Positions 9,346 through 37,500 of a stretch of DNA of 64,000 nt are shown here, one piece after another. Within the stretch, counting starts at the first letter, position 1, and every line of letters starts with the position of its first letter. The notes below the pieces were generated by a model. That model saw nothing but the letters and a program-made list of their open reading frames with translations. It searched no databases and was not told the DNA's origin. Origin of the DNA: Rhodocollybia butyracea. Lineage: Eukaryota > Basidiomycota > Agaricomycetes > Agaricales > Omphalotaceae. The stretch spans positions 1 through 64,000 of the forward strand of contig JADNRY010000183.1 of the NCBI GenBank assembly GCA_015501585.1, given 5' to 3'. The translations under genes were made by a program, and so were the position numbers.

Positions 9346-9780
9346 CCACACGGGTTTTTTTTTTGCTTTTTTTTTTTGCACAACGCGGGTTTGTTGCTGG
9401 CAGTCGGTCGTCACCGCAGGCTATCTTGACAGCTATACGCCATCTGCTGGTGTCTTGGCTTCTTGGTTGCCCGCGCTCACATTTACATACCAACCATTAC
9501 TCTAACTATTACTGCTTCTTCGAGCTCTCCTCGGATTTTCTCTAATTCATATCTCTCGGTTTTTAGGTGGCCTACTCCGACTCCGACTGTTATGACCCGG
9601 ATCTAAATCCTATACACCCAATCTTTTTTCTTCTGTAACCAACTATGAACACTATCATTAATACTTCTACTTAACATTTTACATTCATTAGTTATTCAAC
9701 ACCATTTGGGTTAATGCTGCACACATTCTTCCAGAACACCAGAATGATCTTTAACAGTCACTGCACAGTCTGCACAGTCA

Positions 9781-9894
9781 TGACATCATTCTAGCTCCAC
9801 AACTATGATGTCATCTTGCTACTCCACAATCATGATGTCATTCCATTGCTCCGCAGTTATGATATCACATCACTGCTCCACAGCTATGACATCA
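9781..9894 (+). promoter_or_regulatory. Five TGA(N2)TCA palindromes at 25-27-bp spacing
   Basis: TGACATCA, TGATGTCA, TGATGTCA, TGATATCA and TGACATCA begin at 9781, 9806, 9833, 9860 and 9887. Between them lie variants of CTCCACAG. The shape is that of bZIP (ATF/CREB-like) sites in an LTR enhancer; binding is inferred. Confidence 0.55.
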
Positions 9895-9916
9895 TTGCAT
9901 AGCCTCTTTACATCAA

Positions 9917-10051
9917 TGACTCAATATCAGTCATTGCACAGCCAGATATCTGAGTCAACTACGGTTCCGCATACATGACTCAATATTAGTCATTGCACAG
10001 CAGTACATAGTCAGACTGACTCATCCGCAGTATTTCCGCAGTTATGACTCA
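9917..10051 (+). promoter_or_regulatory. Five perfect TGACTCA/TGAGTCA (Gcn4/AP-1-type) sites
   Basis: Exact heptamers start at 9917, 9951 (reverse form), 9976, 10017 and 10045. They lie 50-190 bases upstream of the TATA box, as expected of a stress- or starvation-responsive LTR promoter. TGACTCA is the known consensus of Gcn4-class bZIP factors. Confidence 0.6.
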
Positions 10052-10098
10052 AATCTAGTCATTCCGCAGCATTTCCTAACTAGTACACATTGCACAGT

Positions 10099-10106
10099 AT
10101 ATAAGT
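10099..10106 (+). promoter_or_regulatory. TATA box of the solo LTR
   Basis: TATATAAG sits between the enhancer-like sites and the hairpin array. A start about 25-35 bases downstream would place all eight hairpins in the transcribed leader. Confidence 0.55.
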
Positions 10107-10201
10107 AGTCTAGATTTACCAATGTACGTTAGACGTATTATTTTTCTTAAATCCAAACCCCCACTTGTTTGCTGTTATCACTTGTGTGAATCACCAGACC
10201 A

Positions 10202-10522
10202 ACTCATTGTATCTTGTTGAGCTATCTCCAAGCTACAATACACATTTATACATCTTGTTGAGCTAACTCCAAGTTGTATCCACTAATATTCACCTGTTGA
10301 GCTATCTCCTAGTGAATACTTCTTCAATTGCCACTTGTTGAGCTATCTCTGAGTTGCAACTTCCTATTACTTGTTGAGCTATCTCCGAGTATTAGACATC
10401 ACACTCACTACTACTTGTTGAGCTATCTCCGAGTATTAGTTCTGATTCATATTACTGCTTGTCGAGCCATCTCCGAGGGTAATCTTATTATTATTTGTTG
10501 AGCTATCTCCAAATAATAACTT
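10202..10522 (+). repeat. Array of eight hairpins with conserved loop and covarying stems
   Basis: Eight near-copies of the 12-base core TTGAGCTATCTC occur at roughly 30-70-base intervals. Each is flanked by 9-11 bases that differ between units yet pair within the unit: TTGTATCTTG/CAAGCTACAA, ATACATCTTG/CAAGTTGTAT, TATTCACCTG/CTAGTGAATA, TTATTATTTG/CAAATAATAA and so on; unit 7 has a bulge. The core can fold further as GAG-CTAT-CTC with a two-base TT bulge below it. The last unit pairs perfectly over ten bases. Stem changes are compensated on both sides, which is what selection on RNA structure looks like. The function is unknown. Confidence 0.85.
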
Positions 10523-11025
10523 CTGTGAGTTTCATATTACAAACTAGTTACTAATTTTACTTGAGCCTAGTTGTTTGAGTATATATTTTTTGCCTAGCGT
10601 TTCATCAAACGGAAAGGCTTGCTCTATAATCTCCATTAATTTCTCTTATCATTGTTACCACCGAGTTACGTACTGTGAAGGTTTGGACGAGACTATTGAT
10701 CGAGTCATAACACCGACTCTACTTATATATCAGGTTGCGTTCTTTGACTTCCCTATCTACTCGCAACACTTGCCTTACCAGCTAACTACGTTCTGCTCAG
10801 TAACCATAAATGTCTTCGTGAGTTATTGCCATTTTTTCTTTCTTTCTTTTTTTTTTTCGGCACTACATCCTTTTTCTTTCCCACTTTCAGTGATATCTGA
10901 AGATCCTCTAGGCGCTCTTTACCCAGCACCAGATATCCTCCTTCTTCCTTTCTGTATGTTTCTTCACCACCTTATTGCTTCTTTTAACTCGTTCTGACTC
11001 TCCTGATTCTTTGTTTTGAAAGTAA

Positions 11026-18641: not shown

Positions 18642-21600
18642 ATGGTAACTGCACATCGTAGTTGCAGTGCAATATATATGTTATGTGTATTACTCTGCAG
18701 TACATCTTGTGTATTGTACAGTGGCATGTCCTGCATATTAGTGCGCTGCAGCGTGTCTTGTGTATTACGCTGCGGCGTGTCTTGTGTATTACGCTGTGGC
18801 ATGTCTTGTGTATTACGCTGCGGCGTGTCTTATGTATTGCGCTGCGGCGTGTCTTGTGTATTATGCTGCAGCGTGCCATGTGTATTGTGCTGCAGTGTGT
18901 CTTGTGTGCTGGTGCCTTGTGTGTTTCGCTTCGGCAAGTCTTGTGTGCTGCACTGCAGCGAGTGTTGTGTATTGGGCAGTGCTATGCTTTGGGTATTCTC
19001 CTGCGGTGTAACTTGTGAAATATGTTGGGGTGCACCTTATGTATTGTGCTACGCTGAGCTTTGTGTGCATTGTATAATATTGGTAATTGTAAGTGCACCG
19101 CTATTCATTGCAGTTTACCTTGTGCTGCAGGTTGCATCTGATTACTGTCTATTTTCTGCCTCTGAGTACTCTACTGTCTGTGCGCAATCCCAGATATATT
19201 TCCGCGGTGGAGGCAGACCTGCTAAGGTTCAACCATGGGATACTTCTTGTCATTCTTTTTTGGTATCTGATAGTGTGCCTAATGATAATGCAAATTTGGC
19301 TACCGCTTCCAAATCACCTACTGATACGCAGAAAATTCCAACTTCTTCATGTATCAATGCCTCTGCTGCTTATTCGGCTGAACAGCCTTTGGATCTCAAT
19401 TTGCATTCATCTTTGCTGACTTCATTTTCAGCTTCATCTTCAAGCACACCACTAGCTTTTGTAAACTCATACCAGTCTGAATTATGCAGCACCAATATTA
19501 CTATTCAGTCCACTGATGCAAATTTGCAGCACACTTTGACTGATTCTCCCAGTACTATTATTGAGCCTGTGGATTTTCCTCCAGAGCCTATTTCGCAGGC
19601 AGGCACAAATGAAATCATCCACAAGTGGTGCCAAGCTTCAGACCCTGCAAATTTTGAAGAAGGTGGCTGCGCTGTTTGTGGTCAACTTACAGTTTTGACT
19701 AATTTGTCTCCATTGAAACATGTAAAAAATATGCTGCATATTTTAGAAAAACCTGGTGTGACACGTGTTCCCAGATCCAATCTTTCTGAGCCTGTGCGAG
19801 AACTGCGGGGCCCTGTTTTAGATGCATCTTGTTCTGATCGAATTTGCGATTTTTGCCGCGCAAAGGTCAGGCAAGGTGTTGTTCCACCACTCGCTTTGGC
19901 CAATGGTTTGTGGCTGGGTAATGTTCCTCCAGAGTTGCAGTCACTTACTTTTATTGAGAAATTATTGGTGGCAAGGGTGCGACACTCTAAATGCTTTGTC
20001 CAGGTTCAAATTGGGGGCTCAATTGGTCACAGCAAGCTTGTTTCTAATGTTATTGCATTTGAGAATCCCACTCCTAAAATATATGATGTATTACCCCCCC
20101 CCAGGGATGATTTTGATGAAGTTCTTGCTATCATGTTTTCTGGAACATGCGCTCCTACTGATGAAGATTATAAGCGTGCACTTTTACTAGTGAGGCGCAA
20201 TGTTGTAGCGCATGCTATCAAATATTGCATATTGAATCATGGTGACTACACTGATGTTGTGTTTTCTCCCTCTAATTTAGATACTTATTCAAGCAATAAA
20301 CCTATTGTTGCTGTTGAGTACTTCAAGAAAGGAACAAACCGCAATGCTGAAGGAGTTAGTGTTCATGATACTCTGGAAGATGACGGAATAGAAGATGGAG
20401 AGTGTGTGTTTACTGTTCACGGCATTGTTGGGGAAGATATTGACTTAAAGTCAAAAGATCAACTCCGCGCAATAGCTATTCATCATTTGGATAACGAGGG
20501 TAAATTTCTCCGCACATCACATGCTGCCAAGCCAGAAAGTATATGGAACAATGTTCATCTCTATCCAAAGATGTTTCCATGGCTATTTCCATTTGGCTTA
20601 GGGGGAATAGGCTCAACTTCACTTTCTGAGTCAAATTTATCAGATACTACTCACAAGAGATTTCTGATGATGTATCATGATAAGCGGTTTCAGATGGATC
20701 TCTCATTTCCTTTTGTGGCATTCAATCATGAGCAAATAAAAGCTAGCACTACTCAAAGTTTTATTGTAGCTAATTCCAAACAAATTGATGATATAGCAGC
20801 CCGCATGCTTTCAGTTAACAAAGATACTTTACATGACCTAAGTAGCCGCATGGCCAGTGGTGAATTTGTAAAACCAGCTTCAGAAGAAGAAAGCAAATGT
20901 TTTTCTTTGCTGCGGGATATGGAACTTGGTTCAAAAAAGATTCAAGGTTCGATCAGTAGTAAAAAAATTATGCAACATGAAATATGGTCTCTTGCAACTT
21001 ATGTAGGCACACCTACCTGGTATTTCACTATTGCCCCATGTGATCTGAAGCATCCAATATGCATGTATTTTGCTGACACTAAAGAGTCTTTCAATGTGCC
21101 TTTGCGCAGCAGTGAAACCCGCCGGATGCTTTTAAGCCACAATCCAGCTGCAGGTGCCTGGTTTTTCCACTTTATGATTACTTTATTTTTAGATATTGTT
21201 ATTGGTACATCTGCATCACCTGGTTTGTTTGGTCCTATGGCTGCATATTATTGCACTGTGGAGCAGCAAGGGCGGCTTACTTTGCATCTTCATGGTGTCG
21301 CATATGCTCTTAATACATTAACACCATTAGAAATCAGAAACAAGCTTTTAGATCCGACTTCAGATTTTCAAGTCCAGTTGTTGGCCTATTTAGAAAGTGT
21401 CCGGGTAGGTGAGTTTGTATCATCTACTAAGGAAGAGGTTATACAATCAGTGCATATTGCTGAAACTGATAAAGGTTACATTAGCCCTGAATTAACCCTT
21501 CCTACTCCGCCCCTTCCTTTTGTGGGTGCAGTAATGCATCTTGTAGTAATTGCACTTCATATAAGCTATGGCACAGCAAATATTTATTTGAAGTAAATGA

Positions 21601-22174
21601 TTTATTACTGAAATCAAATTTGCATGATTGCTTGCGGGCATTTAGACCTGATGGCACTATCCGCAGTATGGACAAATTTGCTGTTTCATGTTTGAATAAC
21701 AAATATCGCAAGTGCAAGGCGCGCTTTCCTCGGGTAACTTATCCACTATCATCTGTTGAATCAGAGACGGGCCATATATCTCTTAAGAAATTGGAACCTT
21801 GGCTTAACGATGTTTCACCTGCTCTCACATATCTTATGCGCTGCAACACTGATGTAACTTCTTTAACTTCTGGTACAGCAATCAAAGCAGTTGTGTGCTA
21901 TGTCACAGATTATATAACTAAAACAGGTCTGAAGACACATGTAGTATTTGATAGTATGAAAACTATATTTGAAAATAATACTGCAATAATAGATGGTTCT
22001 CAATCTGCAAAAGATAAGGCGCGCACTCTATTAACAAAGATGGTCAATGTTTTAGCAACTAAATTAGAATTAGGAAGTCCAATGATATGTTTATACCTTT
22101 TGCAAAATCCAGATCACTACTCCAGCCATCGCTTTGTTCCATTTTACTGGAAAACATTTGTAATGGAGGCACGC
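18642..22174 (+). pseudogene. Helitron Rep protein, N-terminal half (DUF6570 + HUH nuclease)
   Basis: A long frame from 18642 to about 21520 continues, after a one-base shift in a T4 run near 21522, through 22174. The first ~140 codons are the minisatellite; the true start is probably near 19140-19240. A zinc-knuckle region (CAVCGQL ... CDFCRAKVRQG, 19665-19870) followed by LANGLWLGNVPPELQ matches DUF6570. The Rep domain has the two-histidine motif LHLHG at 21285-21293 and the tyrosine pair Y-VTD-Y at 21899-21913, the YX3Y pattern of Helitron nucleases that cut and join single strands. The frame is cut by the gypsy LTR at 22175. Confidence 0.9.
18740..19070 (+). repeat. 24-bp minisatellite, decaying rightwards
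   Basis: The unit GTGTCTTGTGTATTACGCTGCGGC is repeated almost exactly from about 18740 to 18900, then with increasing change to about 19070. The period is a multiple of three, so several frames stay open, giving a Cys/Val/Leu-rich repeat peptide. I doubt it is coding; it lies between the gene-poor stretch and the Helitron reading frame. Confidence 0.75.
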
Positions 22175-23701
22175 TGAGAGGTCTAAACTGGGGTGAACTT
22201 AGAAATGGCTTACACAACCACACCAAACACACACACAACTTATTACTCAGTTCGGGTTTTTAGTTCAGCCAAATAATATATATTTTAAACTTCAATCTAT
22301 TCAAGTGCTTCCTTGCTACACTGAGTGTTATTTCACTAAGTGCCTTCCCTTTCAAAGTACAGACTTATTTAAGCTAATCCCCAAGCTCTGAGCTGTCAAA
22401 CAAATACTATTCCTAAGTCCCTTGGTAAAATCACAAATTAACACAAGTCACAACTGACCAGAGGGTGTCCCTATAACTCAGACAGAGCTCTGACTGCAGC
22501 CTAACTGTGGTTTGAAAATAATATTCAAAGTCCTTTCTAAGTCTTTGTCTTAACTTCTCTGCACTCAGTTCACACTGAATCTCTTTCTGTCTCTTTACTC
22601 AAGTTCAATTGCTTGTCAATTTCTCTCTGTAAATCCCAGTCTTTATATCAATTCAATCTTTTAGTAGTAGCCTGATAAGGAGCTGCTACACCTGGTGGGG
22701 GTAAGAAAGAATGCTTTTCTCTTCATTTCCTTGCCTTTTTATACTCCTAAGTCCTTGAAATTTTCTTAATTAAGGTACCATGGGTTGGTAAGACTCTCTT
22801 GGCTTGCCAAGAGCCAAGAAGATAAATCTCATGTTGCCCTTGTTAGCCATAACTGAGCTTATAAGTGTTCTCCTGGTTCCTACACTGTCCCCAGGGCTCT
22901 ATATCATTGTCTCATGGGTCCTCTACCCATATTACACCTTTTCTAGATCTTTTATTTAATAAGTAACGGAGGGGAGGGAAGAACGATGCATTCCCGTTGA
23001 GTGGTTCGACTCTGATGCGCTTTAAGCGCCGGGCGGTCCGTCCGTCCCGCGGTTCAAGTTTGCGGCGTCGTTCCGTATCTCCCCTTTTCTCTTCTCCTCC
23101 CGGGTCCTACCGGGTACTTGTATACATGTGGACCGTCCCGTAGGTCGGTCCGAATAAATTTTATTATAGGCACGTCGCTAGGACGCGCCCCGCCTTTCTT
23201 TTACTGCCGGCGCCGGGCCACTTTGATCCCCGGCGCCTAATTCATCACTAATCGTCTAGTTTCTCTCTGTAGTTCGTTCCAGGGAACCAGTGCTTCGATT
23301 CTCTTACTTTAAACGGATATGGGTTCGCATTATGCTTGCACTCATTCGTCTCTCTTCATCTATTTTAATCCTGTCTTGTATATCCCTGTATAGGACTTTT
23401 TGTAGTAGGTAGTATTAATTGAATAGACTTTAGATCTGGCAAGCCTAAATCAATCTAGGTAAATCAATTTGATTGATTTTGAGTTTGTGGGTCAACGATG
23501 CATCCTTGCACAGTAATGTAGCCTCTTAAAACATAGTGTATCTCCCTTCAAATGGGTTTCTACATACTAGATACCTGAAGTGGACCTTCAAAGTGTCTAA
23601 TACATAACGTACCCTAGGTAGTGACGTGACGTGTTTCACGGGGTCTTTTAAATGATGACATTTCGCTTGAATTTCGGCGTACAGCGTAATTCGGCGTGTC
23701 A
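22175..23701 (-). repeat. 3' LTR of the gypsy element (element orientation)
   Basis: Same length as the other LTR, with four visible substitutions near 22376, 22750, 22946 and 23007. It is preceded in element orientation by the polypurine tract. On the plus strand it lies directly upstream of the antisense gene at 23979 and could carry that gene's promoter. Confidence 0.93.
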
Positions 23702-23715
23702 TCTCCCCCTTACTT
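23702..23715 (-). other. Polypurine tract
   Basis: On the element strand AAGTAAGGGGGAGA abuts the first base (TGACA) of the 3' LTR, the normal plus-strand priming site. Together with the primer-binding site it fixes the element's orientation. Confidence 0.85.
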
Positions 23716-23978
23716 AAATCTGAACTGTCCCCAGTTCTTCTTTATCTTTCACGCCCTTCCCCAAGATACGATGGGTTTTCTCCGGGGTCTGGTCACCACG
23801 TCGGCCTATTCTTTTTGCGTGCGGATTTGTTTTCAGCAGTATCTTTGAGCTGCAGTAAGTTTTACGCCCTCTAAGTCATTTTCTTTGAGTATTTAAGACT
23901 TTTCAGCGACTTTTCCATGGCCCGTTGAATCCTGCCTCCCAACTTCTCGCTGCTCGCTACTCAACTCGTCTATCCAAG

Positions 23979-25452
23979 ATGTCTACGCCTGCTGCTATGT
24001 CTAGTCCCGAGTATTTGGCTCTTAAAGCTGAGATTCTCTCGGCCTTTCAGGAATACAACAAGAAACTCGCTGAGTCTTCCGGATATGCCTCCAACTTTTA
24101 TTCTTTTGCTGGAATGGCTACGGATATGTGCGAGAAGACTGTGCGTGACCGTCTTTTTCCTCTTTTATAGTCTATTCACCAATCGTCTCTCTTTTAGGCT
24201 CGTTTCCTTCCTGCAGAGTACCGTGTTCACTTCCTCGCAGACAAGGAATTCCACCCGCCTTTCTTCAAGATTCGTAGTACCTTGGAAAACTTGGTGAAGT
24301 GGGCCTCCTCTAATCAGAAGACGTTCGCCATGCCTTCCTTCTATCCAGCACTCCGTACACTCGGCAATCAGATTTATGCTCAACAACGTGCAGAGCTTGC
24401 GGCTGCTGCCACGGCGGCAACAACTGACACTTCCACGGAGGCATCTAGTGGTGCGGTTGGAGTCGCTGCAGCGGTTACTACTGCGGTGACTGCCAATACA
24501 GCATCTAGTAAAGGTACGCACATTACTCCTTCACTCCCTATATCTCTTTTCAACGTTGTCCTAGGTAGCCGCCCTACTCGTGGCAGAAAGGCACCCAAGA
24601 CCCCCGAGATTGTCCCTGACACGGACTCTGACCCTGACGAAGTTTCTTTCGTCACTGAGGACGTCACGATGTCCGACGGCACAGGCCTTTCAACGGCAGA
24701 ACGTCTCTCTCTTAATAAAATGGTATGTCCTTCGCTTGTCTATAATGCTTTTTGGATGCGGCTGATTTTTGTTCTCAGCCGACAACCAGTGTTGTTGTCA
24801 AGGACCTTTACGGCGTTCCGATTGACACCACCGTCCCTAAGTCTCTCAAACGTCAAAAGTTCAAAGAACCTTCTGCCCTTGTACGTCACTTCTCATTTTC
24901 TCACTGTCTCACCTCCTAATCTTTGGCATTATAGAGTACCGGTACTTCGGCCAAGGTAAAGTACCTCTTTTATAAACAAGTCCCCGGTATGGACACTTCG
25001 TCTTATCTCTATTCGAAGGCTCTCGACACCACCAAATCCGGACAGGATGAAATCGCCGCAAAAAGGTTCAAAGCCAATCACCCTAGCGAGGACTATTCCA
25101 AGATCGGCAAGGATGCCACTCTGGCCTTTAATACGTCGGCTGACCGTATCGCCGGTATGTTCTTTCATCTCAACCGTCGTGCTTCTTTATATCTGACCTA
25201 CTCTTCTTAGCTTCTATTTCCGCTTTCGTCGGTCCTGCTGCCACTTCTACTCTCAAGCTTGCGCTTGACACTACCGGCAAGCCCGTCCTTACGGCAACCG
25301 AAGCCAGTCTCGTTGCCAAGGAAGCCTTCTTCCGTGGTGAGGTTGACCTCATGGTTAGCAAGATCCAGACCCTGTTGGGTTACTTGGAACTTATTACGGC
25401 TGCGCACATCTCTTCTCTTAACTTGCTTCATGTCGCCGGGCCTTCTAAATAG
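23979..25452 (+). CDS. Antisense six-exon gene inside the gypsy element, unknown protein
   Basis: It lies between pol and the 3' LTR and is read opposite to gag-pol. Exons 23979-24140, 24198-24513, 24565-24722, 24779-24880, 24935-25154 and 25211-25452 join in phase with consensus sites (GTGCGT, GTACGC, GTATGT, GTACGT, GTATGT; all YAG). The ~332-residue product starts MSTPAAMSSPEYLALKAEIL, has an Ala/Thr-rich middle, a TRGRKAPKTPE basic stretch, an acidic DTDSDPDE patch, and ends LNLLHVAGPSK. I recognise no domain; no signal peptide or membrane segment. Five spliceosomal introns survive because the genomic RNA is the other strand. It may be a captured host gene or an element-specific accessory gene; no frame breaks. 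Confidence 0.8.
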
Positions 25453-25703
25453 TCGGCTCGCCTATTCTCTACATAATTTAGTGTACTTTGTTTGTACACG
25501 GTTTTGACTTAATACAAAATTTTTGTACGCCGTCACTTGAACTTGCGCGCGTGAACTAAGTTCATATATGATTTTACTTTGAGTTCATTTGCTAAGTCCA
25601 TACTCGCCACTTCTCTTTACTTGTGAAATCCGGCAGAATTCTGACAGATCTTCCTTTACCTTCTCCTTTTGATCTCCTCGTGGTCTCCTCACGGTCTCCT
25701 CAC

Positions 25704-28700
25704 TTAATCATTTTCTCGTTCGCCTCTGATCCTCGGCTCGGTGATCGTGTTATCGTATTCATAATCACTGATCCGATCAAACTCAAAATTAACTTCTTCT
25801 GAAATTATTTTGGACTCTTCGGAACTAACATCTTTCTCGCTGGGCTCTGGCCCTTGAACAATTCTTTCGAGTTCCTCGGGAGTAAGTCCCGTAAGTGTAG
25901 ATAGATTCTCGGGAAGTGTAATTTTATGCCGGGCGTTGTAAGGCCTGACCCGAAATGGTGAGATCTTGTTTTGAAAAACTGATCCATCCATTTCGGCAAC
26001 TACATAAGCTCCTCCCTTAGTCTTTCTAATAATTATGCAGGGGCCCCACCATCTTGGCATCATTTTAGCATTAAGGGAGTTCTCCACTTGTGAATTTCTC
26101 ACTAGTACAAGGTTCCCTGGTTTGAAGTCAAAGCTTTTGATAGTGTGAGCATGCATCTTCTCATATCTTAGTGTTCTTTCTCTCTTCTCATGGTCTATGG
26201 AACTCATTATATCTTTAACATGGTCTGCATGCAGAGACAGAGCTCTGGCTCTAAGTCCAATTAACTCAGTAGTACTAAGTACATGTCCTGGCACTTGCAT
26301 GAGCCAAGTTGCTTGCATGATGTCAAAGGGGAGGACTGGGTGTGCTCCTGTCATGGCAAAGAAGGGGGAACAACCCAATCTCTTTCTAACAGTAATTCTA
26401 TCAGCCCACATCACTTCTGAGACATGGAAAGCCCACTTAGATTGGATACCATTGGCAGCCTTGTAAAGGGCCTGTCTGACATCCCAGTGTGGTCTCTCTA
26501 TCTTCCCATTAGCTTGTGAATTATAGGGAGCAATCCTAATCCCTTTGATTCCATATCTCTCTGACAAATATTTAAGTGCATTTACAAATGGTGGACCATT
26601 ATCTGTGTAGATTACAGCTAGACACCCCCATCTGCATATAATGTCCTCAAACATCCAATCACCAATTGCTTTTCCAGTTTCTTTCTGGAGTGCCCTCCCC
26701 TCCATCCAACTTGAAACATGGCACCTGCCATGCACAAAGTACTTTTTATTATTTGACTTTGGCATATGCATAGTGTCTGCATGAAGGACTTGTAAAATAG
26801 AAGGGGTGGATGTAAGCTTAGGCGGGGTCCTAATCAATTCTTTCAATCTTTCCTGACACAAGTGGCATGTCTTCACATACCAGTTGGCATCTCTATCTAG
26901 TTCAGGCCACCAGAATCTCTCAGATAACAAAGCTTTAGTGGCAAAGACACCCCTGTGCCCAAGACTATCATGAGCCGCTTTCATCATTGACATTCTGTGT
27001 TCCTTCCCCACAACTAGACAATGTTTACCCTCAATATCCCTTTTGTACAACTTGTCATCTTTCAAGAAGAATTGTCTGGCAAATTGTTTGAAGTTCAAAT
27101 AGTGGTTCTCATTGTCTTTCACAAAATCTGGCTTCCAAGCAGGGTCTTTTAACCAGGTCCTTACACTGAGGAGCCTGTTGTCCTGCTCTTTACCTCTCTC
27201 TGATCTGTGTCCTTCTTCATACTTTTCCTCACTAATATAAGGCTGTGGCTTGACAGCCTGTGGAAGGGCTGCAAGCAAAGGTGCAGTGGAGGTATCCTCC
27301 TGTGCAATCTTTCCTCTCAAAAACTGTTCTTTCATACTAGCATCCTCTGCAGTTTTCACAAAGTCTTGTACAGACTCCGCAATTTCATGAAGGAAACCAG
27401 TACGGGTATCAATCTCATCTTTAAACTCTTCCCAGGGGATGGTGGTATCTATTCCACCTTCAAAGGAGAAAGTGCAAGACTTCTCATCCGCCTGATACTC
27501 CAGCTCAGGGTTATAATACACTTCATCTCCAATTTCCCAGTCTCTTCTAGACAATCCATCAGATCCATGTAACCTTCCTGGAATATGTCTAAGATCAAAG
27601 TGGTACATCAGGATCTGTTCAATCCACCTGTTGATGGCCGCGTTTGGCACCTCATCAGGGTGTTGGATCATCCCCTTAATGAATTTTGCATCCACCTCAA
27701 CTTTTAAATTTCTAATTCCAAAGAGCCAATACTTACAAGCAAATAAGGCTCTGTATAGACCATACAACTCTCTCTTAGGTTGTGAAAACCTGGCTTCCCT
27801 GTCATTGTAGGTGATGGACCCAAATCTCGCGTAATGCCTTTTTCGGGTCTCATCATCCTGTTGTGCAATGTAGAATCCCACTCCCTTAAAGGAACTATCA
27901 ACCGACAGAATTACAGGTTCTGGACTAGTATAGTCAATTTTCCTAAGTGCAGGAGACTCCCTAATTGCCTGCTTCAAGTTATCCATAGCTTTCTGCTGTT
28001 CAGACGTCCATTCAAAGGGCACCCCCTCCTTTCTGAGTCTATTGATAGGTTCTGCAATTTTTGCATAGTTCTTGACAAACATTCTACAGACCCCAGTAGT
28101 TCCTAAGAAGCTCCTGACATCAGAGATATTTTTACAAGGTCCCCATCTCTCAATAACTCCCATCAAGTCTGGGTCTACAATTCTTCCCTCATAGCTACAT
28201 CTGTATCCAACAACTTTAAACTCTGAACAACAAATGCTTGCTTTAAATCCAGAGAAGGTACCTCCACAGTACTTTACTCTTTGAACTACTCTATTCACAT
28301 TCTGAAAGTGCTCCCAGACAAATCTGCGTATACCAGGATTTTCAGGGATAGTTTCATATCCTCCATTAGGTAATTCATACCTTGTCTTAGGACCCTTAAT
28401 TGGAACATCATCAATGTAAGGTCTTGTGACATGGGGGATCTCCTCTCTCAACATATAGGTAACATCATCATGGAATATAGGGACTGAATTGGTCCAACCC
28501 ATGGGTAAGGTGGTTAACCTAAGTGCTCCATAAGGCGTCTGGAAAGTTGTCAAGTCCCTAGATGACTCTGCTAGTGTCCTCTCATCATAACCCACATACA
28601 TATCTAAGATTGCTCCACAGGAGTAGCCAGCAAATTGTTCTGCTAACTCATCTGTTGCAGGAGGTAATCCAGAGTGTTGTATGGTAACTGCATTCAATGG

Positions 28701-29789
28701 CTCTAAACTCTGTACAATCCTTATTGACTTTCCATCTTTCTTGAGAACTCCAAACCATCTTGATCTATAAGATGAGTTTGAAGGTTCAAACACTCCTGCC
28801 TCCATCTTAGTCCTAACAACTTTACATACTTCATCATAAGTACCAGGGGGAATTGGAATATTCTTCTGGACCCAAGGAGTATGAGGGACTACAGGCATTT
28901 CTACAGGTGGGAAGAAGTCCTCTCTGAACTTTCCCCTCTCTTCATCATTCCATGCAAATCCTTTTTCTTGCACCATCATAAAATGATGCAACAACTTTCT
29001 CTCTTCTGGCCATAGAAAATCCTCGGAATGAGCATTGTCTATGACCTCCTTCCTCTCCTGAGTATACCTCCCAGTAGGTGTGAAATCTGGAGGATTCCTG
29101 CTAAGTTCAGGCATATCCTTCAATGGATCTCCATCTATCTTTCTCACTATCCTGAAGTGTTGAGGAAGTTCACCAACAATTGGTCTAACTTTCTTGGCAA
29201 CAGGCTTGTATTTATACACAGAATGAACAGGCTCTTTTGGGTTACAACCCAGAGTGGGTAGGGAATCAGAAACTGAGGAATAGAAACTCCTCTGGGTATC
29301 ATCAACTGTTTTTGTCTTTTTGATATTTTCTATTCTTTTTAGTGTCCCAAGGGACTTAGTCTTTTTAAATGTTTTTGGCACCTTAATGGACTTAAAGAAA
29401 TTATCAATTGTTTTTGGTTTTTCCACTTTTTCCCCATTTTCTCTAGGTTTTCTCAAGTGAGGAGGTCTATCATCGAGTTCAACTTCCACGGTTTGGTAGG
29501 CATATTGACTGTCAGACGGAACTCCCACACTTGGCTTTTCTTCTTCATAGGTATCATGCAAGAAATTATACAGGGTAAATTGAGCCTTTTTATCATTCTG
29601 AGTTGCATGCAAGGACTTAGCCAAGTAAGCGTTTCTCAGTTGTACAGGAGAAAATCTTTCTCTTTTGGGTAGACAATAGTCCTGAATTGTTATATTCATA
29701 GACTTGTCAATTTCAAAGATGACTGCTACCTCTCCTTGATCTTTCTCTATCAAATCCTCAAGGTTAACAGAAAACCCTCCACCTTTTCT
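25704..29789 (-). CDS. pol: Pol polyprotein: reverse transcriptase, RNase H, integrase
   Basis: The frame, open from 29789, is entered probably by -1 frameshifting from pro; the first non-AUG codon, TTG, is at 29753. RT has YIDDV (about residue 446), RNase H starts ILSVDSSFKGVGFYIAQQ, the integrase has the H2C2 finger (GHRGVF...TCHLCQ) and DDE residues in HADTM, YTDNGPP and GKIERPHWD, then a GPY/F-like end (WWGPCIIIRKTKGGAY). All domains are intact over about 1,350 residues with no stop, so the enzyme part looks functional. The order RT-RH-IN defines Ty3/gypsy. Confidence 0.95.
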   Translation of the reverse strand, partial: RKGGGFSVNLEDLIEKDQGEVAVIFEIDKSMNITIQDYCLPKRERFSPVQLRNAYLAKSLHATQNDKKAQFTLYNFLHDTYEEEKPSVGVPSDSQYAYQTVEVELDDRPPHLRKPRENGEKVEKPKTIDNFFKSIKVPKTFKKTKSLGTLKRIENIKKTKTVDDTQRSFYSSVSDSLPTLGCNPKEPVHSVYKYKPVAKKVRPIVGELPQHFRIVRKIDGDPLKDMPELSRNPPDFTPTGRYTQERKEVIDNAHSEDFLWPEERKLLHHFMMVQEKGFAWNDEERGKFREDFFPPVEMPVVPHTPWVQKNIPIPPGTYDEVCKVVRTKMEAGVFEPSNSSYRSRWFGVLKKDGKSIRIVQSLEPLNAVTIQHSGLPPATDELAEQFAGYSCGAILDMYVGYDERTLAESSRDLTTFQTPYGALRLTTLPMGWTNSVPIFHDDVTYMLREEIPHVTRPYIDDVPIKGPKTRYELPNGGYETIPENPGIRRFVWEHFQNVNRVVQRVKYCGGTFSGFKASICCSEFKVVGYRCSYEGRIVDPDLMGVIERWGPCKNISDVRSFLGTTGVCRMFVKNYAKIAEPINRLRKEGVPFEWTSEQQKAMDNLKQAIRESPALRKIDYTSPEPVILSVDSSFKGVGFYIAQQDDETRKRHYARFGSITYNDREARFSQPKRELYGLYRALFACKYWLFGIRNLKVEVDAKFIKGMIQHPDEVPNAAINRWIEQILMYHFDLRHIPGRLHGSDGLSRRDWEIGDEVYYNPELEYQADEKSCTFSFEGGIDTTIPWEEFKDEIDTRTGFLHEIAESVQDFVKTAEDASMKEQFLRGKIAQEDTSTAPLLAALPQAVKPQPYISEEKYEEGHRSERGKEQDNRLLSVRTWLKDPAWKPDFVKDNENHYLNFKQFARQFFLKDDKLYKRDIEGKHCLVVGKEHRMSMMKAAHDSLGHRGVFATKALLSERFWWPELDRDANWYVKTCHLCQERLKELIRTPPKLTSTPSILQVLHADTMHMPKSNNKKYFVHGRCHVSSWMEGRALQKETGKAIGDWMFEDIICRWGCLAVIYTDNGPPFVNALKYLSERYGIKGIRIAPYNSQANGKIERPHWDVRQALYKAANGIQSKWAFHVSEVMWADRITVRKRLGCSPFFAMTGAHPVLPFDIMQATWLMQVPGHVLSTTELIGLRARALSLHADHVKDIMSSIDHEKRERTLRYEKMHAHTIKSFDFKPGNLVLVRNSQVENSLNAKMMPRWWGPCIIIRKTKGGAYVVAEMDGSVFQNKISPFRVRPYNARHKITLPENLSTLTGLTPEELERIVQGPEPSEKDVSSEESKIISEEVNFEFDRISDYEYDNTITEPRIRGEREND

Positions 29790-30952
29790 TTAGTGTCTGA
29801 GTTCTCTCTTGCCATCTTTATCTCCTCTCTTACATTCTCCTTGATGTCAACACTTGGCGGCCTCTTTGTCATAATGGCAGCAGTTCCTCTTGCAAAGGTA
29901 GGTATGGTTAACCTTCTACTAGACATTGGATCATTCAAGGTCACTATCTGTCTTCCATCAGCATAATTCTGAATTTGAGTTTGCATCAGAGTGTCAAAGG
30001 GCCTTCCTAAAAGTACATCATAGGCTGGGGATCTGATGACATGTACTTGTAATAATACAGTCATATCTCCAAACAGGAATGGTACATTCCTTGCCAATCC
30101 TAAAGATTTGTCTAAGCTCTTATTTGCACTCTGCATGTAAATCACAATATCAGGGTCCCAAACTAAACTCGACTTCTCAGCTTGATTCTGAGATATGGAT
30201 ACAATCTGTGAACCAGAGTCCAACAGACACTCTACATGATTTCTTCCATTCAAGAGTGGGTAAATAGACCTTAGACTTTGTGAGTCAGAGGCTACCACTA
30301 TTTGTTTGGGTTTCTCTTCTGGACTTAGAGCTTCTAGGTATTGTAGAACAACATCACCAACCACATAGGCAGACACAGTCTCTCCATTGTTGGATTTAGC
30401 TTTCTCCACTTTTTCCCAAGTCACAGTAGGTAAGTTTTGGACATCTATGGCACTGTGATCTAGACTGATCCCTTCAAACTGGGACTTGACTAGGGCAGGC
30501 GTATTCCTTACTGGCACCTTCTGTTGACTAACTCTAGCTTTCAACTCTTCTCTAATAGGTTTGGCCGCAGCCAAGAGTTCACTAGTTTTGAGAGTGACTT
30601 CACTGTCAAGAATCTTTTCTACAATGGTGCGCACATTTCCAGATTTCTCTATCGGTGCAACAAAATTATAGGCAGGCTCCTTGTCCTCTACTTGGTGAAA
30701 TCTCTCGCTTGCTTTCTCATCACTTGACATCCCTAACACTGGGAGTTCAGACACATCTTTCACATTTAGAAACGGGTTTGCTGGTATTTCACTAATTTCA
30801 AAATCAAGATCACTATCTTTTGATTTTGACACATCTCTTCTTTTATTTATTACAGGTACAGGGGGAACAGAAACATAAGCTTTATTTGCTGGAGGAGAAT
30901 GGTTCTCAGAGGACTTGGTCACAGCTTTGGTCCTAATCATTGAACTCTTCAT
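29750..30952 (-). CDS. pro: Aspartic protease (Pro)
   Basis: A 400-codon frame with the retropepsin-type motif LLDSGSQIVSIS and the flap and C-terminal pattern SPAYDVLLGRPFD. Its ATG shares bases with the gag stop (ATGA), so it is probably made by coupled reinitiation. It ends in TGA overlapping the pol frame, with a candidate slippery heptamer 20 bases before the stop. Confidence 0.9.
   Translation of the reverse strand: MKSSMIRTKAVTKSSENHSPPANKAYVSVPPVPVINKRRDVSKSKDSDLDFEISEIPANPFLNVKDVSELPVLGMSSDEKASERFHQVEDKEPAYNFVAPIEKSGNVRTIVEKILDSEVTLKTSELLAAAKPIREELKARVSQQKVPVRNTPALVKSQFEGISLDHSAIDVQNLPTVTWEKVEKAKSNNGETVSAYVVGDVVLQYLEALSPEEKPKQIVVASDSQSLRSIYPLLNGRNHVECLLDSGSQIVSISQNQAEKSSLVWDPDIVIYMQSANKSLDKSLGLARNVPFLFGDMTVLLQVHVIRSPAYDVLLGRPFDTLMQTQIQNYADGRQIVTLNDPMSSRRLTIPTFARGTAAIMTKRPPSVDIKENVREEIKMARENSDTKEKVEGFLLTLRI
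29771..29777 (-). promoter_or_regulatory. Candidate -1 ribosomal frameshift heptamer (pro-pol)
   Basis: G GGT TTT in the pro frame fits X XXY YYZ. It lies inside the pro/pol overlap (29752-29789), and slipping back one base enters pol (GGGFSVNLEDLIEK). There is no other route to pol with an ATG. Confidence 0.65.
30949..30952 (-). promoter_or_regulatory. ATGA stop-start overlap between gag and pro
   Basis: The TGA of gag and the ATG of pro share two bases. No X XXY YYZ heptamer precedes it, so termination-reinitiation is more likely than frameshifting at this junction. Confidence 0.7.
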
Positions 30953-32863
30953 TTTTCCTGCTGCTCACGTTCTTGCTGCCTCCGAGTTTGAACAAAGGCT
31001 TCTAACTCCTTCAAAGTTGGCTGAACGGGACTCTGTTGTACAAGTTGTGTCATAGGATTGACACTACTCATATTATTTTGAGATCCCCAGTTCATGCCGT
31101 TATTAGGGGTGAACTGACTCTGGTTCAAAAACTGGTTCATGGGAATTCCCATGGGGTTCACATACTGAGTTCCAGGTGGAGTCCATCCAACTTGTGAAAA
31201 TTGACTCTGTTGAGTGGGCATAGCATAACTCTGCTCATATGCATTATACATCTGAGGCTGAGGGTTTTTCATACTCTGCAACTCTTTTTCTAACTGAGCA
31301 ATCTTCATTTCTCTGGAGTCTAACTGATTACTTAGATAAGTGGACATAGTAGCAGTGTTGATCATTCCCGGTACATGCATGGGAGTACTCTGTACTAAGT
31401 TCACAGATCTCTCCTTCTGTCCTTTATTTGCATAATAAAAGTCAATCCTGTCCTTTTCACAGACAGCACCAACCGGCTCTCTTGGAATAGGAAAATTTCC
31501 TGGTAAGCGGACTCTGCCATTCACCAGAATAATTCTACCCAATTCTAATAGATCTGCCCTATGCGAACACTCATCTCTCATATGACCTTCTTCATTACAA
31601 AAAAAACAAGCCCAGCGAGTCTGGGGATCACTTTGCGGAGGTCTGTTATCTCGATTACTATATCCCCCAGAGGTCCTTTGGTTGGAGTACTGACTTGTTT
31701 GTCCAGAACTCCTCTCCACATTACTCTGTTGAAATGTTCTCAAGAGATCATCCATCTGCTTGGAGTTCTCCTGTCTTAACTCATTCTGACTTATTTTGAT
31801 GGTGTCCAAAAGAACTGCCATCTTTTCTGACATCAAATCTTTCATTTCCTGTTGCAGGTTCTCTGACTTTACTCTATTTCTAGCTTCAGATGAAGAGTTG
31901 TCTTTGGGTTTGTCATAGGTTGGGGTATAAATCCCTGGCATCGTTCCCCTAACTATCTCTTCACCTTGTCTAATCACATCATCAATCTCATACAAATCAT
32001 CCTGTCTTGCTTTCTGACCCACAGGAACTTTCCTGCTTTTTCCTTTTAAGTGCAAAGCAGAAAAAATTGCGGTCCTGAAGCCTGCCTCCAAAGCTCCTGT
32101 GAATTTCTCCACAAGTTCTCTGTTTGTAACAAGAGGCGCAATTTGTACTGCTGCACCAGCCAAGGCCGGTGGGTTCAACTCTAGCGTGATTGCTCTAAAC
32201 TTTCTGATAAGTGACAAGTACTCATCCAAGTCTGTGCTATCAATATTTTTGTACTTCTTGAACAATCTATTCAACTCTCTTATAGTTCCTCTTTCTTCAT
32301 CTGAGGCACCTGGGTAGCTGGCAAGAACTGCTCTCTTTGAACTCCTCAAATGTCTTAGTAGTGTCAGAAGCTTCAGGCAAAGCCTTCCACTCCCAAGACA
32401 CACTTCCATCTGGGTATCTCAGACTCCACTTTCTCTTTTCATCCTGGTCAGTCACTGAACAGTCACTGAACAGATTTTCTAACTCTTCAAAATATCTTCT
32501 GACTTTTAAAGGGTCATCAGTCCCTTCAACAGTTAGAGCAGGAGCATCCCTGGTACCAGGTCTTGGCATAGAAGGACTCATTCTGACTATCTGATTTTGT
32601 AATGGCAAGTTTGTGTTTGTAGGTTGGTTTGAAACTGGAGACGTAGGTCTAGTTCTCTGAGTGTTCAAGTTAGAATTAATTCTTCCTTGTGTTGCACTTG
32701 TAGCTAAATTTCTAGCTCTTTGGGCAATTGAGGGCGAAGTTCCTTCAAGTCTCGAAGTGCTCTGAGAGGGCCTTGTGCTAGCAGACTGTTGGTTTTCAAG
32801 TTGTTGCTTTGCCTTAGCAGAAGCGCGGGTATGAACTCGGTCACCAATAGTGTTAGATAACAC
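30949..32863 (-). CDS. gag: Gag polyprotein, one frameshift
   Basis: Structural capsid protein. The N-terminal 188-codon frame (32863-32297; Gln/Ser/Thr-rich start, then ALTVEGTDDPLKVRRYFEELENLF) must move one frame near 32340 to continue into the 486-codon frame ending at 30949. Reading one A fewer in an AAA run gives FKRAVLASYPGASDEE, typical gag capsid. The C-terminal region has a CCHC zinc knuckle (CFFCNEEGHMRDEC) and a Gln/Met/Asn-rich tail. The stop overlaps the pro start as ATGA. Confidence 0.9.
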
Positions 32864-32964
32864 AGTTGTTCTCTGTCTCTTTTGGGTTGGCTGTGGTAGG
32901 CCTTTTTATATCAAGCAAGTGATAAATGTATAGGTCCAAAAAAATAAAATCTGGGCTGCTAATA
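32864..32964. other. Short gypsy leader between primer-binding site and gag
   Basis: About 100 bases, AT-rich on the plus strand, with nothing recognisable other than the leader of gag. Confidence 0.4.
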
Positions 32965-32982
32965 CCCTCGCGGTGGGCTCCA
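32965..32982 (-). other. Primer-binding site
   Basis: TGGAGCCCACCGCGAGGG starts two bases inside the 5' LTR, with the TGG expected to pair with a tRNA CCA end. I could not assign the tRNA species. Confidence 0.7.
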
Positions 32983-32984
32983 GA

Positions 32985-34511
32985 TGAGAGGTCTAAACTG
33001 GGGTGAACTTAGAAATGGCTTACACAACCACACCAAACACACACACAACTTATTACTCAGTTCGGGTTTTTAGTTCAGCCAAATAATATATATTTTAAAC
33101 TTCAATCTATTCAAGTGCTTCCTTGCTACACTGAGTGTTATTTCACTAAGTGCCTTCCCTTTCAAAGTACAGACTTATTTAAGCTGATCCCCAAGCTCTG
33201 AGCTGTCAAACAAATACTATTCCTAAGTCCCTTGGTAAAATCACAAATTAACACAAGTCACAACTGACCAGAGGGTGTCCCTATAACTCAGACAGAGCTC
33301 TGACTGCAGCCTAACTGTGGTTTGAAAATAATATTCAAAGTCCTTTCTAAGTCTTTGTCTTAACTTCTCTGCACTCAGTTCACACTGAATCTCTTTCTGT
33401 CTCTTTACTCAAGTTCAATTGCTTGTCAATTTCTCTCTGTAAATCCCAGTCTTTATATCAATTCAATCTTTTAGTAGTAGCCTGATAAGGAGCTGCTACA
33501 CCTGGTGGGGGTAAGAAAGAATGCTTTTCTCTTCATTTCCTTGCCTTTTTATACTCCTAGGTCCTTGAAATTTTCTTAATTAAGGTACCATGGGTTGGTA
33601 AGACTCTCTTGGCTTGCCAAGAGCCAAGAAGATAAATCTCATGTTGCCCTTGTTAGCCATAACTGAGCTTATAAGTGTTCTCCTGGTTCCTACACTGTCC
33701 CCAGGGCTCTATATCATTGTCTCATGGGTCCTCTACCCATATTACACCTTTTCTACATCTTTTATTTAATAAGTAACGGAGGGGAGGGAAGAACGATGCA
33801 TTCCCGATGAGTGGTTCGACTCTGATGCGCTTTAAGCGCCGGGCGGTCCGTCCGTCCCGCGGTTCAAGTTTGCGGCGTCGTTCCGTATCTCCCCTTTTCT
33901 CTTCTCCTCCCGGGTCCTACCGGGTACTTGTATACATGTGGACCGTCCCGTAGGTCGGTCCGAATAAATTTTATTATAGGCACGTCGCTAGGACGCGCCC
34001 CGCCTTTCTTTTACTGCCGGCGCCGGGCCACTTTGATCCCCGGCGCCTAATTCATCACTAATCGTCTAGTTTCTCTCTGTAGTTCGTTCCAGGGAACCAG
34101 TGCTTCGATTCTCTTACTTTAAACGGATATGGGTTCGCATTATGCTTGCACTCATTCGTCTCTCTTCATCTATTTTAATCCTGTCTTGTATATCCCTGTA
34201 TAGGACTTTTTGTAGTAGGTAGTATTAATTGAATAGACTTTAGATCTGGCAAGCCTAAATCAATCTAGGTAAATCAATTTGATTGATTTTGAGTTTGTGG
34301 GTCAACGATGCATCCTTGCACAGTAATGTAGCCTCTTAAAACATAGTGTATCTCCCTTCAAATGGGTTTCTACATACTAGATACCTGAAGTGGACCTTCA
34401 AAGTGTCTAATACATAACGTACCCTAGGTAGTGACGTGACGTGTTTCACGGGGTCTTTTAAATGATGACATTTCGCTTGAATTTCGGCGTACAGCGTAAT
34501 TCGGCGTGTCA
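32985..34511 (-). repeat. 5' LTR of the gypsy element (element orientation)
   Basis: It begins TGACACGCC and ends ...GACCTCTCA in the sense of the element. The primer-binding site follows it at 32965-32982. The middle holds a GC-rich block (about 33770-34050) with strong hairpins. Confidence 0.93.
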
Positions 34512-37500
34512 ACGCAAAGTATGGTATCCTCAAGATATTCAAGGTGACAATAAAGTTGTTCTCATAAAAAAGAAAGGTAAATTAATTGGTCTTTCTTCAA
34601 CTTATGATTATACCCACCGGCCTGAGCAGCATACATCAATCTACTTGTATGATTGGATTCGCCGCTTTACTAGAGCAGCTAAGCGCAGTGGCAAGCAGGA
34701 TATACCAGATCAATATGCAAATAATACTGAAAAGTTGGAGTCTGATCAGTCTGCACCTACTATAAATACAGTACTCAGGTACATGGAAGGTCATCCATTA
34801 GCTCAAACACATGCCCCTGTTGCTACCCACAATTGGCAATATGTGGTGCCTAACTTCATAGGTCCACCTTTACCGCGACCTGATAAGGAGGATCGTGAGT
34901 TTTATTGCTGCACAATCCTGGCTCTATTTAAACCTTGGCGCACAGGTAAAGATCTTAAAGCAGATGGCAAATCATGGCATGAAGCTTTTGAAAATTACAA
35001 GTTTGGTGATATGGAATCATTTTACATTAAAAATATGAACTTAAGATATGAATGTTTAGATGCTAGAGATGATTTTCGGTCACAAATGAAAGCTGGTAAT
35101 CAATCTACACTCCCCATCAGTATTCCTTTTAGTGAAGATATGAATTCTGGTTTGGCATCAAACTTCGTTTCTGCTGAAGGAAATCATGAATTATTCTCTG
35201 AGGAATTTGATGATGATGGACTGGTTGTACTTTATGATGCTAATACTGGAATGGTATCAGGTAAAAACTATCTTGCAAAAGAAAGAGTAATGCAAGTGAT
35301 GAGAAATGTGCTATTCAATTCTGGATGGACCAATGTTCTTCAGCGCAAACACAATGATGAGGATACTTTGCCATATAAAATACCAGTGCCTATTCAAATT
35401 TCAAGTATAAATGCTAATGATTGGGATACAGTTTTGAAGATAATGAGAGCTGATATATTGATTGAAAGAAAAACCAAGGGTGCACATTCTGGGGATACCG
35501 CCACTAAAATTAAGCTAAAAAAAGTTCAAACCCAATGTTGCTGAGATATGCGATAAATCCTTTTTTGAAAAGGCTGGTATAGAATATGGAAGCATAAAAA
35601 AACACGCCAAATCTGCCATGGATAAGTTCTGCTTGAATAATGAGCAAGAGAGGGCTTTTCGCATTGTAGCCCAGCACTCTTCTTCTGGATGCATTGAGCC
35701 TTTGCTTCTTTATATTGGTGGAATGGGTGGTACAGGTAAATCTCGCGTTGTTAAGGCTCTTTTATACTTTTTTTCTCTGCAAAAGCGAAGGCATGCAATT
35801 ATTACCACTGCTCCAACTGGTAATGCTGCTAATCTTCTAGGTGGCTCCACTTATCATTATCTTTTGGGTTTTAATGGGCAAACAGAGGAAGCTTCTATAG
35901 GCACCATGACTGAAGTATGCAGTCGCCTTGAAGGTATTGAATATGTTGTTCTTGATGAAGTATCAATGTTAGGATGCATTGAGATGTATAAAATTTCAGA
36001 GCGGATGGCGAAAGTTAAAAACAAGCCTCACGAAGCGTTTGGCTCAATTAGTATGATATTTGCAGGTGATTTTGCTCAGTTGCCACCTGTGGGTGGTGAA
36101 AGTGTATCACTGTACACTCATAAAGCTGGTGCAAATCCTACTACATTAAATGGTAATTATACTGCAATAGGTAAAGCACTTTGGCACCAGGTTACACAGG
36201 TTGTTATCTTGCGCACAAATATGCGCAATACTGGTGAAACTGAGGATGATATTAAATTTAGAACTGCTTTGGAAAATATGCGCTACAAAGCTTGTACCAA
36301 AACTGATATTCGTTTCTTAAATACTCTGGTCTCTGCAAATAAACCAGGCCGGCATTTTATTGGTGCTACACCCTGGCGGGATGCCCCAATTATTATTGGT
36401 GAAAACAGGCAGAAGGATGAAATAAATAGACTTGGATGTCTGTGCTTTGCTTCTGATACTTGTCAGGAGCTGACACACTTTTTCAGCGATGATACTATAT
36501 CAACTAAAACAGAAAGTCCTAAGCAGAAAACATCACTGAAAAAAGCAAAGAAGTCAAAAATTACTTTGATGACACAAGACCTGCAATCTATGTTGTGGGA
36601 CATTCCAACTTCTAGTCATCAACATCATGCACCAGGTAAACTTTCGCTTTGCTTAGGTTTGCCTGTTATTATCCGCTATAATGCCGCAACTGAGTTGAAT
36701 ATTACCAAAGGCCAGCGCGGTACTGTGTACGCATGGCATGCTTCAAAGGGTAAATATGGCCAGCAAGTGTTAGATGTGTTATTTGTGCTACTTGATGACC
36801 CTCCTGAACCTGTCCAAGTTGAATCTTTACCATTAAATGTAGTTCCACTTACTCGAAGAAACACATCTGGATTTGTATATTTACCAGATGATTCCCGCAT
36901 AAGTATTATGAGAAATCAGGTTGATGTCCTTCCAGGTTTTTCTATGACTGCACATGCATCACAAGGGCAAAGCTTGATAGTTAATGCTACAGATTTGAAT
37001 ACTTTCAGTGATCACCATGCTTATTACACTGCTCTATCGCGCAGCTGCAGTGCCCATAAAACAGTAATATTGCAAGGTTTTGATTCAAAACATATAACAG
37101 GAGGCGCCACTGGCTCTCTTCGCAAGGAATTTAGAGAACTTGAATTACTTGATGAAATTACCAGATTGCGGTATGAAGGTAAGCTTGATAAATCTGTTAA
37201 TGGTTCCACAAGGAATACTCTCATAGAGCAATATTGCAATTGGAAAGGCCTATCTTATGTGCCTTGTAATGTCCATTCTGCAATAAAATGGTCTGACAAA
37301 GATCCCTACATACATGAATCATCAGGGGATATTGAATGGTCAATTGTTGACAAAAAATTATTTAAAAGACAAAGGAGCAGTTGCTTGCGGCTGGTACAAA
37401 AGATACTACTTCATTATCTATTACTGCAGTTACTCAGAATACTGTATCTAGTTCATTATCTAAGAAGCGAAAAAGACTATCAGAATCTATGCAACCTAAC

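Follow-up and report, generated by a model that had tools for sequence, protein, structure and literature searches.

A tandem hairpin array in the leader of a putatively self-priming Ty3/gypsy element from Rhodocollybia butyracea

What might a retrotransposon do with a short RNA tip that is presented again and again on stems of different sequence? The question is raised by a solo LTR of the basidiomycete Rhodocollybia butyracea, which carries eight tandem hairpins. The LTR lies in contig JADNRY010000183.1 of assembly GCA_015501585.1, of which positions 1 to 64,000 were analyzed (the window, 64,000 nucleotides), and the source genome comprises 95.6 Mb in 1,381 contigs. In each leader read, the tip recurs 7 to 12 times on differing stems, which allows tip and stem to be separated by comparison, and the array could explain the mobility of elements that have neither capsid nor polymerase.

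Anatomy and pairing of the array

The units of the array are as follows:

10206–10239, + strand: hairpin 1, with a mismatch at stem position 5
10247–10280, + strand: hairpin 2, core TTGAGCTAACTC, with a mismatch at stem position 5
10286–10319, + strand: hairpin 3, with two inner mismatches
10327–10360, + strand: hairpin 4, which forms when folded alone and is paired otherwise in the best fold of 10190–10530
10363–10396, + strand: hairpin 5, with a mismatch at stem position 7
10407–10440, + strand: hairpin 6, with a mismatch at stem position 7
10451–10484, + strand: hairpin 7, core TCGAGCCATCTC, with a one-base bulge
10487–10520, + strand: hairpin 8, with a perfect 10-bp stem

The cores start at 10217, 10258, 10297, 10338, 10374, 10418, 10462, and 10498; six are exact, one has 1 mismatch, and one has 2 mismatches. 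The whole window holds 16 core matches with up to 2 mismatches on both strands, compared with a shuffle mean of 6.5, and none of 100 shuffles reaches 16. An initial annotation, made from the letters of the window, had described a core recurring eight times with few base changes, between flanks that differ across units and pair within each unit. Both parts of this description hold. Over the seven outer stem positions, the pairing is 5.1 between the two arms of one unit and 3.4 between arms taken from different units, and just 8 of 40,320 arm permutations reach the observed pairing sum. Folding of 10190–10530, which the annotation had proposed as a check, gives an RNA structure of −76.4 kcal/mol (z −3.49; equalled by none of 100 shuffles) whose best fold contains seven of the eight units.

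Two finer claims of the annotation stand in part. A stem mismatch common to several units is found as two separate pairs, units 1 and 2 at position 5 and units 5 and 6 at position 7. The suggested GAG/CTC helix within the core, with a bulge beneath, can form in 54 of the 58 distinct units, but the TAR-like inner bulge is unfavoured in most. When the window units are folded alone, the helix has a probability of ~0.15 in four of the eight and of 0.26, 0.43, 0.53, and 0.93 in the others; the best fold of single units is GA/UC with a 4-nt loop in six of eight, the bulged form being favoured in two. TAR and the retroviral Psi stem-loops are likewise short 5′-leader hairpins with a conserved tip that can be a dock for protein. 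The present hairpins differ from them in standing eight to nine in tandem, as well as in the disfavoured bulge.

The pairing also carries a signature of the strand. Among the 580 stem cells of the 58 distinct units, 423 are Watson-Crick, 56 G-U, 8 A-C, and 93 other. Such an excess of G-U over A-C is expected of a sense RNA, with the caveat that CpG decay feeds the bias and that the units are related. Pointing the other way, the antisense strand folds more stably than the sense strand in all seven folded leaders. Structure of the array at the RNA level is well supported.

Two readings would place the role of the repeats elsewhere. If they acted as DNA, they would be inverted-repeat sites for a host factor with no part played by RNA, and the upstream U3, with its clustered palindromic bZIP-type sites, lends this some plausibility. 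It is nevertheless very unlikely: variable arms around a fixed centre are the opposite of a palindromic site, G-U exceeds A-C, and the array lies 3′ of the probable transcription start. Tandem short hairpins in a multi-copy element might also be a small-RNA precursor, cut by host Dicer for silencing, or might serve as decoys. Between units, however, the conserved part is the core and not the stem, and stems of ~10 bp are short for Dicer, so that this reading has the slimmest chance of those considered.

Comparison with 4227 Rfam families gave no match at E up to 1 for 9500–10800. Core-based patterns matched 28 stretches of viral contigs, once each and without arrays, and at least 116 stretches of prokaryote genomes; among 80 of the latter matches, listed one per stretch, there were no arrays. 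The viral and prokaryote matches are read as chance.

A probably self-priming leader around the array

The LTR and its remaining parts are as follows:

9588–10712, + strand: solo LTR of 1125 bp, with ends TGTTATGAC...GTCATAACA, flanked by a TSD
9588–10130, + strand: U3, with 10 bZIP-type palindromes
10098–10105, + strand: TATA box TATATAAG
10131–10142, + strand: self-primer AGACGTATTATT, the probable RNA 5′ end, complementary to the PBS following the LTR in full-length copies
10152–10159, + strand: TCCAAACC, candidate 5′ strand of a second leader duplex (partner 10680–10687), alone not significant
10680–10687, + strand: GGTTTGGA, candidate 3′ strand of the second leader duplex
10691–10706, + strand: GACTATTGATCGAGTC, small inverted repeat directly 5′ of the LTR end, at the U5-IR stem position, a weak stem in the local fold

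The TGTT...AACA ends, together with a 5-bp TSD (CCGAC at 9583–9587 and 10713–10717), bear out the earlier assignment of the array to a solo LTR. Within U3, positions 9781–10051 hold 10 palindromes (TGACTCA, TGACATCA, TGATGTCA, and similar), where 0.31 are expected and none of 500 shuffles reaches 10. The palindromes are presumably bZIP-type motifs of the Gcn4/CREB kind, and U3 likely contains a Gcn4/CREB-like enhancer.

The site of the self-primer AGACGTATTATT at 10131, 33 nt below TATATAAG, gains its meaning from full-length copies. In these, the LTR is followed by T and then AATAATACGTCTC, which the primer complements, and the gag ATG comes within ~30 nt. The same arrangement recurs in the families treated here: family A, to which the window copy belongs, and families B, C1, and C2. 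Their primer and PBS are perfect complements of 12–16 nt at an equal relative place, with different sequences, and the PBS begins one base after the ACA of the LTR. The pairs, each with the primer below a TATA box, are AGACTTCTTATT with AATAAGAAGTCT in family B (five loci, also seen in L069 and L070), CTTTAGTCTCTATATT with AATATAGAGACTAAAG in C1, and TAGTCCTAATATT with AATATTAGGACTA in C2. L004 and L074 have the primer with one change; a primer was sought in L076 and not found. Small stems 5′ of the PBS fold locally. For the second leader duplex, the observed score is reached by 22 of 200 shuffles in family A and by 62, 147, 38, 20, 93, and 15 of 200 in the other six of seven leaders. Priming by tRNA was also considered and set aside, as no TGG-type PBS was seen by eye after the LTR.

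The element thus looks self-priming in the manner of Tf1, judged from these complements, which is new for this array-bearing element, and its RNA would start at the self-primer. The position of the self-primer below the TATA box, with its complement in the PBS, puts the array in R-U5. The annotation had also placed it there, and a second line of evidence agrees. The R-U5 of the window has no sense ATG, where 9.8 are expected, compared with 15 in U3 (10.7 expected) and 11 on the antisense strand of the leader. Leaders of the families have no ATG in six of seven cases and one in the seventh; among 50 family-A leaders, 40 have none, eight have one, and two have two. This near-absence of ATG makes the leader look selected as a 5′ UTR. 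All signs agree that the array is part of the leader transcribed from a self-priming Ty3/gypsy element.

A leader so nearly free of ATG, with gag beginning ~30 nt after the LTR, could point to translation control, in which a host or element factor, bound to the hairpins, would guide ribosomes along the leader to the gag ATG. The loss of ATG shows only scanning or translation past the leader, however, and the array-less leaders of family C are depleted too (0 ATG, with 4.5 and 4.2 expected). Translation control is accordingly regarded as an improbable role.

Compaction is another role that the position between primer and PBS suggests. Here the hairpins would merely shorten the chain that separates the two and so let them meet, with the sequence of the tip incidental. 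In L024, local pairs alone reduce a 615-nt spacer to 121 exterior nt, and primer and PBS are closed in the MFE folds of all seven leaders. Compaction on its own leaves unexplained why a fixed core should sit on variable stems and why family B should have a similar core, and families C1 and C2 manage without arrays. As the whole explanation it is unlikely, if somewhat less so than translation control. Since C1 and C2 look self-priming and have no arrays, priming would seem to be independent of the array and to need none.

Self-priming itself has a well-known model, and the Tf1 mechanism is matched here in outline (PMC10085805, PMC7175516, in the passages available). As in the Tf1/sushi chromoviruses Tf1, Tj1, and Tosmo1-3, so far as the available passages describe them, the RNA 5′ end complements a PBS behind the LTR, and the LTR ends in CA. 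The chromodomain integrase of these chromoviruses is likewise present in the autonomous family B, and the family-A copies read (C750, C1038, and C477) had no pol. Unlike the Tf1 leader, the leader loop contains a long tandem hairpin array. One account, in the passages available, depicts the self-priming leader as a three-duplex "pretzel" without reference to any hairpin array (PMC10085805); the array thus adds a large insert to a known leader. The 5′ leaders of Ty1 and Ty3 are comparable as structured 5′ regions with a cis-acting function in an LTR retrotransposon, and differ in having a tRNA primer in place of a self-primer (PMC4974528, in the part available). In the same part, packaging sequences of LTR retrotransposons are described as not precisely defined even in yeast, and the word hairpin is absent from the main text of that paper (PMC4974528). 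The annotation had offered no described element of such design. In agreement, titles and the beginnings of abstracts in the literature searched gave no earlier description of an LTR leader that carries hairpins in tandem, although some paper may describe one.

Variation among copies and families

The genome contains 1,949 exact cores, compared with 6 for a reversed control. If each array has five to seven exact cores, this number corresponds to ~300 copies, so family A probably has hundreds of copies. The set compared here began with 71 matching loci, of which 65 passed a length filter and 50 had distinct leaders, the window copy included; several of the 50 are the two LTRs of one element. In the DNA searches behind it, scoring covered 40 of the 380 whole-LTR candidates and 40 of the 359 array candidates, and so these searches are no census. 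Arrays have 8 units in 29 of the 50 copies, 9 in 19, 10 in one, and 7 in one. Outside this set, L066 (G000:C111:5200-5900) has 12 units, several of them near-identical 44-bp copies in tandem, and is probably a recent expansion.

Divergence from the window copy at non-CpG positions is 0.71% in stems, 1.30% in cores, 4.35% in spacers, 2.81% in U5, and 0.45% in the first 71 nt. The hairpins are therefore kept better than the spacers, and the cores are not kept better than the stems. Across the 50 copies, 33 types of variant stem pair were found: 11 remain paired after a one-sided change, 7 break the pair, 1 is a two-sided change from paired to paired, and the other 14 are at positions unpaired in the window copy. 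The initial annotation had described the stems as covarying, and had named one-sided changes in other copies, or loops varying as fast as stems, as what would speak against it. With 30 of the 33 types one-sided and only one two-sided paired-to-paired change, covariation is not supported among family-A copies. Many of the family-A stem changes are CpG transitions, and the copies are very alike. The pattern of a fixed core with variable stems is one between units, not between copies.

Related families were reached through a genome gag search, in which 113 of 277 candidates were scored and all 113 matched. Upstream regions were read for ten of the gag matches and then for eight more. Five of the first ten are close relatives in family A, and all five have the family-A array. 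Another three, L069 and L070 (B1) and L072 (B2), have a hairpin series with other stems and with cores like TG-AGCGTTTC-CA and TG-ACGACTTAC-CA, while no hairpin series was found in the leaders of L071 (C1) and L073 (C2). In the further eight, a hairpin series is present in L079, L080, L081, and L086, and none was found upstream of gag in L082–L085. At the threshold used, 3 to 6 hairpins of the form ..TG-A...C-CA.. are present in family-B leaders, in the position that the array occupies in family A. The Gag proteins of B and A are 41–45% identical in fuller matches and 54–59% in some partial ones. By eye, the cores of A and B appear alike (TGAGC...TCCA). A genome search for ACTGAGNNTTTCCAGT gave 59 places, compared with 1 for the control; of eight such places, seven have the family-B primer upstream, one of these with the PBS as well, and one is unrelated. 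The leaders of L071 and L073 have in common a segment with CACACCAA whose arms differ, forming a hairpin in the C2 fold and containing mismatches in C1.

Compensatory change within family B was assessed in six leaders, L070 being left out as about the same as L069. Two pairs of the six are near-identical, and the structure was picked by hand from the same alignment, which favours structure. Paired cells make up 98.1%, compared with 96.4% in shuffled data (0/500), cells changed on both sides number 6 compared with 1.9 (0/500), and the covariation score is 0.071 compared with 0.043 (0/500). Pairs changed on both sides number 3 compared with 1.3, a value reached in 25 of 500 shuffles, and further pair types 6 compared with 6.4 (456/500). 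The covariation term of RNAalifold, 0.04 kcal/mol, is of no help. The statistics for compensatory changes in family B are thus mixed.

Arrays that range from 7 to 10 units, and to 12 in L066, copies whose stem changes are mostly one-sided, and a separate 41-bp tandem of B1's own could all be left by a neutral repeat, in which a hairpin-forming unit without function is multiplied by slippage or template switching. A neutral origin nevertheless fits poorly with diverged units that remain self-paired, with hairpin parts that diverge less than the spacers, and with the hairpin series that family B has in the corresponding position. Its probability is judged to be low, below that of compaction or translation control.

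Some loci (L004, L024, L044, L074, L075, L077, L078) are mosaics that mix U3 types, gag types, and R-U5. The U3 types are ~85–87% alike and the types of the gag 5′ part ~83%, and R-U5 is 97.6–99.8% alike in the pairs compared. The mosaics look as if produced by template switching between elements. The higher conservation of R-U5 (~98%) than of gag (~83%) was considered as proof of selection and rejected, because the U3 and gag types are variously combined; exchange between elements may account for part of the R-U5 conservation.

Capsid-less copies and a proposed role in packaging

The families differ in coding capacity. In family B, the C58 copy encodes protease, RT, RNase H, integrase, SH3_Tf2-1, and a chromodomain, and its best PDB sequence matches include Ty3. 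In family A, the C750 copy has an LTR pair, the TSD ACAAT, and an open gag frame of 1138 aa with Retrotrans_gag at 388–479 and a CCHC zinc knuckle; in the 1.5 kb 5′ of its 3′ LTR, frames are at most 71 aa and no pol was found. With two LTRs, a gag frame, and no pol, C750 can be classed from its sequence as a gag-only LTR retrotransposon. Such elements are what is presumably meant by the name TR-GAG, and the C750 type resembles them in its LTRs around a gag frame with no pol found. It differs in its fungal host, in an additional shorter class without capsid, in the self-primer, and in the hairpin array. Of 918 candidate proteins, 12 matched Gag at E up to 1e-5, and the nearest named ones belong to Dendrothele bispora, Tetrapyrgos nigripes, and Gymnopus androsaceus.

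The shorter class has an open frame of 749 aa at 7 of the 113 gag matches. Alignment of the C1038 protein with the long Gag (L068 part) covers residues 1–229 and 555–691, other alignments being below 20 bits. Because these alignments skip the gag domain at 388–479, the protein lacks the capsid, and in Pfam it has only a weak zinc knuckle (E 0.16). Over the 2.5 kb of C1038 that were read, no frame but gag reaches 200 aa, and the 1.5 kb 5′ of the 3′ LTR in C477 contains frames of at most 84 aa. The absence of capsid is read from the single C1038 frame, and that of pol from the C750, C1038, and C477 copies. Short gag derivatives at G000:C1038, C705, C136, C1036, and C477 have LTRs ~4.6–4.7 kb apart, and their matches to the gag query are confined to its later part.

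Some of these elements are young. LTR pairs are 100% identical in C488, 99.74% in C1360, 99.83% in C750, and 100% in C1038 (over 1125 bp), with TSDs that match in C488, C750, and C1038 and mismatch in C1360. Near-identical LTR pairs and matching TSDs indicate that some copies were recently inserted. The recently inserted C1038 element, without capsid or pol in the part read, probably depended on proteins supplied in trans, although pol may be present in some family-A copy elsewhere in the genome. The case for a role in packaging, the role favoured here among those that the initial annotation had guessed, rests mainly, and indirectly, on such a recent copy without capsid and pol having kept its array-bearing leader.

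The reading preferred here, with chances about evenly balanced, is that the array is a multivalent cis-acting RNA signal in R-U5, probably bound by Gag, for packaging in trans. Transcription would begin at the self-primer at 10131, and the first 12 nt would pair with the PBS directly 3′ of the 5′ LTR, closing a loop of ~600 nt in which the hairpins, mostly eight or nine, are located. The stems, varying from unit to unit and yet staying paired, would repeatedly offer one tip to a protein, most likely the Gag of the element family through its zinc knuckle or nucleocapsid. Docking of Gag would select the RNA into particles, also for copies without capsid and pol that move in trans, and the hairpins would compact the leader as well. 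We infer binding partner, packaging, compaction, and transcription start from sequence, and confidence in the anatomy of the array is much higher than in the docking and packaging reading as a whole.

A further suggestion is more doubtful. The tips (TGAGC...TCCA) might possibly be a packaging code common to the autonomous self-priming chromovirus and its gag-only or capsid-less dependants. Such a code would be based on valency: hairpins would be gained and lost and stems would drift while the tip is kept, and defective RNA could thereby enter the particles of another element.

The surroundings of the array offer some further observations. Directly 3′ of it, at 10525–10570, the order GTGAGT...ACTAAT...TAG resembles a short fungal intron. 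Farther along the window, Helitron pieces extend over 18642–38542, comprising Helitron_like_N at 18642–21596 and a PIF1 helicase at 35618–38542. Between these pieces lies a Ty3/gypsy element on the minus strand (25704–32863), apparently nested.
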